Source of the DNA: Phorcysia thermohydrogeniphila
GTDB taxonomy: Bacteria > Aquificota > Aquificia > Desulfurobacteriales > Desulfurobacteriaceae
DNA length: 64,000 nucleotides
Direction of reading: 5' to 3'
NCBI RefSeq assembly: GCF_004339575.1
Contig: NZ_SMFV01000003.1
Span: 62,001 to 126,000 of the forward strand
The position numbers and the translations under genes were made by a program. Shown here one piece after another: positions 58,433-61,535 of this stretch. Under the pieces are notes generated by a model. The model was not told the DNA's origin, did no database searches, and saw only the letters and a program-made list of their open reading frames with translations. The stretch's first letter is position 1. Every line of letters begins with the position of its first letter.

Positions 58433-59119
58433 ATGAAAAGAGTCTGTGCCATAGGAATTCCCAATGACGACGAGGACCTACAGTCGCTGCTTGAAGGTTT
58501 TTCTCCACTAAAGGAACTCTCATTCTACGTTGAACCCGTTGATACAGTACCCACTCGTGAACTGGCCGATTTTATAGACCTACTCGCAATATCTCCCTCA
58601 AAGAAAAACCTTCCACTGATAGACCACGCTGTTGAGTCACTTAACCTCCCAGTTGTTGTGGTCCTGCCCTTTAGAGGAAAAGAGAAACTACTGGAAAACA
58701 TCTATCCCTACATCAATAGAGAGAGTGCCCTCATACTTGTTACCTACAGCGGAGAACTCTTTGTAAAAACAGGAATTAAACTCATTGTCAGAATTTCAAA
58801 CAAGCTCAAGCTTGAAGTAAGGTCAAAGGAATTTCTACAGCTGAGGCTCTCTCCCAACTGCTCTCACCTTGAGAAGTTCAAGGCAAAGAAGCTCCTAAGG
58901 AGGAACTCCCTTTCCTTCAAAGAAGCACTAATGCTAAAACTTTTCTTTGAAAGCCCGGGAGAAGTTATCCCATACGAAAGGTTTTTGGAGCTCGGAATAA
59001 AGGAAGATAGCTTGCCTGTTTACATATCAAAGCTCAGGAGAATGCTCAAATGTCTTGAGCCATCGGTAGTCATAAGGAGTAACAGGAAAAACGGCTACAC
59101 CTTAACTCAGGGCTTGTAA
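58433..59119 (+). CDS. Response-regulator-like protein with OmpR-type winged helix
   Basis: 228 residues. C-terminal 75 residues (LSFKEALMLKLFFESPGEVI, YISKLRRMLK, IRSNRKNGYTL) are the PhoB/OmpR DNA-binding winged helix. The N-terminal 120 residues have the alternating pattern of a receiver, but where the phosphorylated aspartate should be the strand reads FIDLLAISPSK; no canonical acceptor is present. It is divergent from the che operon and so may regulate it. The end overlaps the downstream Hfq-like gene by 13 bases on the other strand. Confidence 0.75.
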   Translation: MKRVCAIGIPNDDEDLQSLLEGFSPLKELSFYVEPVDTVPTRELADFIDLLAISPSKKNLPLIDHAVESLNLPVVVVLPFRGKEKLLENIYPYINRESALILVTYSGELFVKTGIKLIVRISNKLKLEVRSKEFLQLRLSPNCSHLEKFKAKKLLRRNSLSFKEALMLKLFFESPGEVIPYERFLELGIKEDSLPVYISKLRRMLKCLEPSVVIRSNRKNGYTLTQGL

Positions 59120-59601
59120 ACGATTGTTGAAATCGCGTGTTTGTAAACCAAGATGTTACCCATGTAGTTCCTTATCTTAATGCAGAACCTGTCAAAACCT
59201 TTTAGCTTCCCTTCAACCCGACTACCGCTCCGGAAGTAGATTATCACCCTCTTTCCCATAGCGCTGCGGAGCTCCCTGCTCTGCACGCCCCCCATGTAGG
59301 AGCAGGCAATAAGCTTGTGACCTTCCGCAAGCTTCTTCTCAACGTCCTTCTTCTGCTCTTCCGTTAGAATCGGTGGGATGGCTGGAATGAGAGAGGACGG
59401 CCTGATAATAAGCTCGTCTTCTATCTCTTCAAAGACAATGTCGCCAGAGGAACGCATTAGCTGGAGGAGCGGTTTTATACTCTCAGGGCGAACCTGAAGC
59501 CTTTCGGCCAGCTCTTCTATCGTTCCCCTGAACTCACCTTCAGACTCAAGGAGCTCTATGAGCTCTATCTGTGCATCCTCAAGCGTTTTATACCTTTTCA
59601 T
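59107..59601 (-). CDS. hfq: Winged-helix-Hfq fusion protein, second copy
   Basis: 164 residues from ATG 59601 (AGGAG five bases ahead). Residues 11-68 form a winged-helix-like domain (GEFRGTIEELAERLQVRPES). Residues 106-164 are an Hfq/Sm domain: VIIYFRSGSRVEGKLKGFDR is Sm1 and LVYKHAISTIV (151-161) is the Hfq Sm2 hallmark with Tyr-Lys-His; F139 stands for Phe42. Hfq normally has about 70-100 residues and no N-terminal domain. Its Hfq N-helix (GVQSRELRSAMGKR) keeps a glutamine and several basic residues. It starts eight bases after the stop of its paralogue, so the pair is an operon. Confidence 0.82.
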   Translation of the reverse strand: MKRYKTLEDAQIELIELLESEGEFRGTIEELAERLQVRPESIKPLLQLMRSSGDIVFEEIEDELIIRPSSLIPAIPPILTEEQKKDVEKKLAEGHKLIACSYMGGVQSRELRSAMGKRVIIYFRSGSRVEGKLKGFDRFCIKIRNYMGNILVYKHAISTIVYKP

Positions 59602-59608
59602 CCCTCTC

Positions 59609-60118
59609 CTACTCAAAGATTATTGTGGCAATAGCGTGTTTGTAGACAAGGGATTTCCCTTTCGGAGCAGTCATTGAAAGCGTAAAGTTGTCAAAGTCAA
59701 GGAGCTTACCTTCAAGCCTTGTTCCGCTTATGAGGAAAACGATAATGTCCTTACCAAGTAGAGAGTTAAGAACTTGGTCCTGAAGTGAAACTTTCTTCTT
59801 TTTCTTCTCCTCCTTCTCATCCGGCTGTGGCTTTGTCTCTTCCACGGCCGGTACCTCCTGAGTATCTTTTTTCTCCTCTTCCGCTTCTTCTTTTGCTTCT
59901 TCTTTGCTCACTAGAACGATTAAAAGTCCTTTACCTCTCTTTGACTCTGCCTTAAGGAAACCTTCCTCCTCAAGGTCTGAGAGGGCTTTCTTTATAAGGT
60001 AGGGAGATGCGTTTGCTAAGTTAGCAAGCTCTTCAAGGGTACCTGAATACTCCCCAAACTCAGAAAGGTACTCCTTAATCCATATTTTTACTTTTTCTGA
60101 TTTAGACTGAGATGCCAT
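59609..60118 (-). CDS. hfq: Winged-helix-Hfq fusion protein, first copy
   Basis: 169 residues. Winged-helix-like domain about 8-70 (GEYSGTLEELANLANASPYL), a Lys/Glu-rich linker 71-109, then an Hfq domain 110-169. SLQDQVLNSLLGK matches the Hfq N-helix (SLQDPFLNAL) with the conserved Gln and Asp; DFDNFTL holds the Phe42 counterpart; LVYKHAIATII is Sm2. The rim arginines of Escherichia coli Hfq (RRER) are replaced by LLGK. The shared pattern GE-x-x-GT-x-EELA shows it is a paralogue of the next gene. Hfq pairs small RNAs with mRNAs as a hexamer; how the extra domain changes this is unknown. Confidence 0.85.
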   Translation of the reverse strand: MASQSKSEKVKIWIKEYLSEFGEYSGTLEELANLANASPYLIKKALSDLEEEGFLKAESKRGKGLLIVLVSKEEAKEEAEEEKKDTQEVPAVEETKPQPDEKEEKKKKKVSLQDQVLNSLLGKDIIVFLISGTRLEGKLLDFDNFTLSMTAPKGKSLVYKHAIATIIFE

Positions 60119-60182
60119 TTCGTCCTCCGGATAATATTTGCAACTTTAAAAGGTTGTATCCAAGCTGCATTAGCGCAAGTGC

Positions 60183-61535
60183 TCAAACGGTTTTTATTTG
60201 CGGCAAAATTTTAGTCTCAAGTATTTTTGTGTCAAGCTCTCCTCTTATAAAGTTTTCATGCTCTAATAGTTTTATATGAAAGGGTATTGTTGTTTTCAAG
60301 TTTCCCTCAATGATAAACTCAGAGAGAGCTCTCTTCCCTCTCCTGATAGCTTCCTCTCTCGTTTCTCCCCAAACTATTAGCTTTGCAAGGAGCGAGTCGT
60401 AATACTGGGGAACTGAATACCCCTCGTAAATGTGGGTATCAACCCTTACTCCGAACCCTCCGGGAAGGAGTAGCTTTTCTATTTTTCCCGGCGTTGGACG
60501 GAAGTCCTTTTCAAAATCTTCACACGTTATCCTAAATTCTATAGCGTGTCCTTTCAAAGTGGGTTGATTTAAGTCAAGTTTTTCACCGGCAGCTACCTCA
60601 ATCTGATACCTTATAAGGTCCTTACCGGTAACAAGTTCAGTAACAGGGTGCTCCACCTGAATTCTGGTATTCATTTCTATGAAGTAGAAATTCCTGTCCT
60701 TATCAACGAGGAACTCAACCGTTCCAGCACCCTCGTAACCAATGTACTCTGCAAGCTTTTTTGCCGCTTCTGAAAGCTTCTCCCTTAAAGTCTCATCCAC
60801 AAATGGGGATGGCGCCTCTTCAACTACTTTTTGGTGTCTCCTCTGAAGGGAACACTCCCTTTCTCCAAAGGTTACCACATTACCGTGACCATCGGCAATG
60901 AGCTGTATCTCTATGTGCCTTGGGTTTTCTATGTACTTCTCTACGTAGACCTCCCCATTACCAAAGGCAGCCTCAGCCTCAGCCATTGCAGTAGCTATGA
61001 GGGTTTCAGCCTCATCGGGAGACTCTATAAGCCTCATTCCCCTTCCTCCACCCCCGTGGGCAGCCTTCACAAGAACTGGATAGCCAATCTCCTCACACGC
61101 CTTTAGGGCTTCTTGAACGTTCCTGAGGATTCCACTACCCGGAACTACCGGAACGCCTGCTTTAACAGCTACTTCCCTCGCCTTGGCCTTATCGCCCATC
61201 AGAACCATCGCCTCTGGCGATGGCCCTATGAACTTCATACCGCAGGCGGTACATATTTCGGCAAAACCCGGATTTTCCGATAGAAAGCCGTAACCGGGAT
61301 GTATAGCGTCAGCCCCAGTGACTTCGGCAGCTGAAATTATGGCCGGAATGTTCAAGTAGCTTTCCTGAGGAAGAGGACCTCCTATACAGATAGCTTCATC
61401 AGCTAAGTAAACGTGAAGGGAGTCCCTATCAGCCGTTGAGTAAATAGCAACGGTTTTTATACCGAGCTCCTTACAGGTTCTAATGATTCTTACTGCTATT
61501 TCACCTCTGTTGGCTATGAGGACTTTCCTGAACAT
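60183..61535 (-). CDS. accC: Biotin carboxylase subunit of acetyl-CoA carboxylase
   Basis: 450 residues. [22 protein letters not shown]-grasp loop [34 protein letters not shown]. It carboxylates biotin on AccB for fatty acid synthesis. Follows accB after four bases. It could instead serve a pyruvate carboxylase, but pairing with a short BCCP favours AccC. Confidence 0.95.

Follow-up and report, generated by a model that had tools for sequence, protein, structure and literature searches.

A tandem pair of genes joining a predicted winged helix to an Hfq domain in the Desulfurobacteriales

Introduction

To our knowledge, Hfq is a bare ring with floppy tails at most. A locus of Phorcysia thermohydrogeniphila raises the question of what an Hfq-like protein might do with a second folded domain: two adjacent genes, A and B, encode proteins that each carry ~105 additional N-terminal residues compared to a short Hfq chain. 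They lie in a 64,000-nucleotide stretch of contig NZ_SMFV01000003.1, hereafter the window. The original prediction, made from the letters of this stretch, described two minus-strand paralogues of 164 and 169 residues, each joining a winged-helix-like domain to an Hfq domain, with divided duties and possibly six or more nucleic-acid-binding arms on a mixed ring. It proposed structure prediction for each chain, comparison of the N-terminal part with winged-helix families and a survey of Aquificota for the architecture and for a separate short hfq. Here we report what became of these proposals, how widely the pair occurs and what it may do.

Results

Both open reading frames are present in the predicted span and with the predicted lengths (Table 1). 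The open-reading-frame list starts the frame of gene B at an upstream TTG; the 164-residue form is counted from the ATG at 59601. Three genes identified by NCBIfam matches above the respective cut-offs, accC, accB and efp, lie upstream of gene A and share its strand. Four promoter-like sites were found in the region, against 2.1 expected by chance. At the other end, the last 13 bases of gene B overlap the 3' end of a plus-strand gene (58433-59119). The product of this convergent gene has 228 residues, with an OmpR-type C-terminal winged helix that scores 25.1 bits against a Pfam cut-off of 26.2; a seemingly similar gene occupies the same place in genome G132 (L098:5735-6442), and in G123 (L096:3837-4601) the spot just after B is occupied not by the convergent regulator but by a transposase-like frame, named by eye.

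Table 1. Positions of the two genes, their domains and candidate signals in the window
Feature	Position	Strand	Basis or remark
Gene A: winged helix, Lys/Glu linker and Hfq domain, 169 aa	59609..60118	-	ATG 60118, stop 59609
Gene B: winged helix, ordered middle piece and Hfq domain, 164 aa	59107..59601	-	ATG 59601, stop 59107
A residues 1-70: predicted winged-helix domain, wing motif KRGKG	59909..60118	-	AF2, Foldseek, HTH matches of orthologues
A residues 71-107: charged disordered linker	59798..59908	-	pLDDT <50, dN/dS 0.49
A residues 108-169: Hfq domain	59612..59797	-	PF17209 E 8.1e-15, site residues
B residues 1-70: predicted winged-helix domain, acidic wing	59392..59601	-	AF2, hhalign, charge
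B residues 71-104: conserved connecting piece, followed by GGVQSRELR	59290..59391	-	AF2 and conservation
B residues 105-164: Hfq domain, Sm fold	59110..59289	-	PF17209 E 1.3e-12, Foldseek
A-to-B gap of 7 nt with GAGAGGG, ribosome-binding-site-like	59602..59608	-	Sequence
GGAGGA ahead of gene A, ribosome-binding-site-like	60123..60128	-	Sequence
TTGACA-16-TAAAAT within the end of accC, promoter-like; may drive A-B (weak)	60208..60235	-	

The C-terminal parts of both proteins pass the Pfam Hfq profile PF17209 (54.6 bits for A and 47.6 for B, cut-off 27), in agreement with the predicted Hfq/Sm domain. Against the NCBIfam Hfq equivalog TIGR02383 (cut-off 61.7 bits) they score 56.6 and 45.2, below the threshold, so that automatic annotation may well miss the Hfq name. 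In AF2 models B has a full Sm fold, which Foldseek matches to Hfq crystal structures with E ~1e-4 and an rmsd of ~1-2 Å. The Sm part of A is poorly modelled by AF2 as a single chain, and its assignment to the Sm family is based on the profile match. The quoted motifs are exact: VYKHAIATI and VYKHAISTI are present in the pair, and GE-x-x-GT-x-EELA occurs in both proteins, as GEYSGTLEELA and GEFRGTIEELA.

Using what we take to be E. coli Hfq numbering, Q8, D9, F42, Y55, K56 and H57 are kept in 21 of 21 A proteins, with E at position 33 and S at position 52 replacing glutamine in all of them. The 19 B proteins all keep Q8, K56 and H57; position 42 is F in 17 and Y in two, and position 55 is Y in 18 and F in one. 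In B, D9 has become S, Q33 is E, and Q52 is I, M or L (I in the window). The predicted difference between the N-helices thus stands, refined as one in kind: QS in B for QD in A. At the distal site, to which positions 33 and 52 belong, both copies keep G29 and T61; short Aquificota Hfqs also vary at this site. The proximal face of A and B keeps the residues of the U-binding pocket, and RNA binding itself is predicted.

The arginine/lysine patch of the rim (positions 16-19), RKER or RKEK in canonical copies, is gone from both proteins, which have a loop of LLGKD- or ALGKR-type instead. A two-residue deletion common to A and B, in the stretch linking helix 1 to strand 1, removes it. The original prediction had set A, with a Lys/Glu linker and no rim arginines, apart from B, with a shorter linker. 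The rim is lost in B too, and the 'shorter linker' is a piece (residues ~80-104) that is conserved and confidently modelled, with a helix and a strand at ~82-100.

AF2, given 8-row alignments of the window proteins and proteins from related loci, models both N-terminal parts as folded rather than disordered, with the helix-strand-helix-helix-strand-strand topology that identifies them as winged helices in these models. The pLDDT is 74-89 in the N-domain of A and mostly 84-93 in that of B (mean over the B chain, 86). The best Foldseek matches of the A domain are winged helices (CodY C-terminal domain, Z-alpha, MarR and the centromere-binding AspA), none of them close (best E 2e-3); ribosomal proteins of winged-helix fold were matched as well. 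As for the proposed family assignment, no curated HTH family exceeds its cut-off for the window proteins (best E 0.004), but orthologues of A reach GntR at E 1.1e-5 and Rrf2 at 7.5e-5, and several of them match GntR, Rrf2 or HTH families. By sequence, A's N-domain matches DNA-binding regulators (GntR, Rrf2, Crp). Winged-helix profiles run against PDB sequences gave weak matches only, the best being spurious (repetitive designed proteins).

The winged helices of A and B are homologous to each other (hhalign E 2.8e-6), yet they differ in charge. The wing of A carries K/R-K/R-G-K/R-G in 23 of 23 proteins, with a mean charge of +2.8 in family f1, whereas the wing of B is acidic (mean -3.3), as is the entire B N-domain in f1 (about -7). 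The recognition helix of A is near-neutral. This opposition of wings is stronger evidence for diverged copies with split duties than that first put forward, and the same charge pattern, basic in A and acidic in B, is what bears on possible DNA binding by the predicted arms.

We surveyed 391 genomes, 136 from Aquificota and 255 from other phyla, with 24 belonging to the order of the window. Gene A is found as a single copy in 23 of these 24, the sole miss being a 62%-complete assembly, and gene B adjoins it in every A-bearing genome but one, where A sits at a contig end. A model of the A winged helix finds one match per genome, essentially only in this order; beyond these, three matches in family f4 (E 3e-4 to 1e-3) and a single one to a B are all weak. 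With the full-length model, no protein outside the order scores above a bare Hfq in the 391 genomes, among the alignment ranges listed, and the pair was found neither in other Aquificota nor in any of the 255 genomes sampled from other phyla. Within the genomes sampled, the tandem pair is a signature of the order, a deep-branching group of heat-loving bacteria. A 195-codon frame in G294, which stood out by its length, encodes an ordinary Hfq extended by a C-terminal tail. A mobile-element origin was rejected, with no relative in viral contigs and plasmid matches that are partial and cover the Hfq domain only; conservation and dN/dS speak against chance or mis-called frames.

Across the 136 Aquificota, Hfq-profile matches number three per genome in f1 and, as a rule, two short ones in other families; in f2 none exceeds the cut-off. 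In one f3 genome a third, weak Hfq-like match (L091, G043:C38:1280-1426) scores 27.1 bits in an 88-codon frame. The separate short hfq envisaged in the original prediction is present in the window genome, where it encodes 81 residues and lies directly after miaA (L001:1495-1740, G000:C1), a common arrangement in bacteria. For the window genome and f1, which still have an ordinary hfq, we rejected A and B as its replacement. Most other Aquificota (L079, L080, L082, L086 and other f3-f5 loci) have two short hfq genes. One is near hflX (named by eye) in most loci inspected, and after miaA in f4; the other is elsewhere, often beside an ADP-ribosylglycohydrolase-like gene (named by eye). In the tree, the hflX-side gene clusters with f1's canonical hfq.

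That tree, built on 61 columns, places the Hfq domains of A in one group and those of B in another, and joins the two (97/94) apart from all short Aquificota Hfqs. The pair thus likely arose by ancient duplication of a single winged-helix–Hfq fusion, in agreement with the predicted duplication and with the homology of the N-domains; the exact root is unsure because of long branches and few columns. A and B are ~35% identical. A recent duplication is rejected: A and B each have a clade of their own throughout the family, and f2 too has both. Median dN/dS is 0.057 and 0.064 for the Sm domains, 0.155 and 0.105 for the winged helices, 0.20 for the middle piece of B and a relaxed 0.49 for the linker of A, figures that are rough given a high dS of ~1.4. 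The folded parts of A and B are under strong purifying selection.

The start of B overlaps the stop of A (ATGA) or follows it within 17 nt in 22 of 22 loci examined, and translational coupling is likely. Strict co-occurrence with stop/start coupling is usual for subunits of one complex, though no proof of a mixed ring. Outside the pair no neighbour is kept order-wide (accC accompanies it in f1 and rpe in f2), so the neighbourhood implies no target pathway. A functional link to accBC was rejected, as f2 does not keep that neighbourhood.

The explanation that we favor, tentatively as a whole, is a mixed A-B ring with U-rich RNA on the ring and duplex nucleic acid on the A arms. The coupled genes would supply both proteins at once, and A and B would join in a single mixed Sm ring, which we infer from their strict pairing and kept stop/start coupling. 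The proximal face of the ring would hold U-rich RNA 3' ends in the kept pocket. The winged helices of A, on long, flexible, charged tethers, would grip duplex nucleic acid through their basic wing, DNA more likely than structured RNA. The acidic winged helix of B, more rigidly attached, would probably bind a protein or the basic wing of A, acting as a spacer or brake. Six or more binding arms, as first proposed, are unlikely if this acidic domain binds no nucleic acid. Such a complex could hold transcripts in the vicinity of DNA or bring RNA to selected sites, with ordinary Hfq alongside doing the sRNA work. Canonical matchmaking is less likely as a role for the pair, because the rim and parts of the distal site are lost in both copies and a canonical Hfq is present.

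Family f2 bears most directly on what the ring is for. Its genomes G113 and G114 have the same tandem A-B pair, with an A winged helix ~50% identical to that of the window, and Sm domains that lack YKH in both A and B and match Hfq weakly (for B, Pfam Hfq E 0.009 and 0.025 and hhalign E 3e-4; for A, hhalign E 0.009; the hhalign probabilities are low). No other Hfq match was found in the two f2 genomes searched, which are 95% and 64% complete. The pair has thus been kept in f2 while its Sm domains decayed, so it can persist there without RNA binding by the ring. This fits the main rival explanation, in which the proteins are a DNA-binding regulator (a nucleoid protein or transcription factor), with the Sm ring serving only as an oligomerisation scaffold that provides avidity and with RNA binding vestigial; the basic wing, present in every A, fits it as well. 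It does not fit f1, where the proximal pocket is essentially invariant in 21 of 21 genomes and where constraint is strongest on the Sm domain, whose dN/dS lies below that of the winged helix in both proteins. We consider this explanation unlikely.

The same family has a gene for a T4-Rnl1-type RNA ligase next after B in both genomes (L095:8293-9444; L101, L102), its frame overlapping the end of B in G114. This neighbor would suit an RNA-only factor that works alongside ordinary Hfq in translation or in the handling of mRNA, and whose winged helix would bind the ribosome or structured RNA. Winged helices can bind RNA, and the ribosomal proteins among the Foldseek matches of A point the same way. 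In f1, however, the ligase gene is elsewhere in the genome and is missing from several genomes, and the A domain resembles DNA-binding regulators in sequence; we find an RNA-only role improbable. A functional link between pair and ligase was rejected, as their adjacency is seen in f2 only. In G132 (C2, ~155417-156001) an RNA-ligase match falls inside a 2910-codon stop-free frame, which may be a long or fused gene, or an artefact of the frame itself. Least probable of all are two separate homohexamers, subfunctionalised paralogues with different jobs that are merely co-transcribed: the deep divergence of A and B and their different linkers and charges speak for it, but strict co-occurrence and stop/start coupling across the order argue against it.

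Discussion

If the mixed ring bridging RNA and duplex nucleic acid is correct, it could go further than the reading set out above: it may be the first bacterial hetero-oligomeric Sm ring, with arms on DNA and the ring on nascent U-rich RNA, coupling transcription to RNA fate and distinct from the ordinary Hfq of the same cell. We regard this full version as rather unlikely. The pair offers a thermostable system in which to study Sm rings of mixed composition and the coupling of DNA to RNA, and f2, with decayed fused Sm domains and no detectable ordinary Hfq, a natural experiment on the purpose of the ring.

Among known proteins, A and B share with Hfq, for example that of Aquifex aeolicus (5SZD; PMC5379935), the Sm fold, the YKH motif, Phe42 and Gln8. 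They differ from Hfq by the extra winged helix, an altered distal site, their occurrence as two coupled paralogues, scores below the equivalog cut-off and the lost rim, a patch that in Hfq aids annealing (PMC5379935). The longer Hfqs of NCBIfam NF010691 (176 positions) likewise have an Hfq domain in a longer chain, without a winged helix; A and B match two different regions of that profile, partially and far below cut-off, which suggests that its chains contain two Hfq domains. Winged-helix regulators (CodY C-terminal domain, MarR, GntR, Z-alpha) share the H-S-H-H-S-S topology of the N-terminal parts, whereas in A and B they are fused to an Sm ring subunit, and the window's proteins exceed the cut-off of no curated HTH family.

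We found no paper in the open-access literature joining Hfq with Desulfurobacteri- or Thermovibrio, and no bacterial fusion of Hfq to a winged helix or helix-turn-helix described in the titles and abstracts of the open-access papers listed. The closest parallel is archaeal: the available part of one report describes zinc-finger–Hfq-like fusions on plasmids of Thermococcus and Methanocaldococcus, for which its authors proposed recruitment to DNA for regulating certain transcripts (PMC3543421). As far as that part of the report goes, these fusions resemble A and B in placing a DNA-binding-type domain before a C-terminal Hfq-like domain, and differ in having a C2H2 zinc finger, in lying on mobile elements and in no tandem pair being reported; neither A nor B has a Cys/His finger in its N-domain. 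Joining a DNA-binding-type domain to an Hfq-like subunit therefore has one precedent; what appears to be new is the bacterial form, which is chromosomal, in tandem, spread through an order and built with a winged helix. A coupled pair of this kind, with folded domains of nucleic-acid-binding type, would show that in bacteria too, as in eukaryotes and on some archaeal plasmids, Sm proteins have diversified by fusion to other domains and by the pairing of paralogues.
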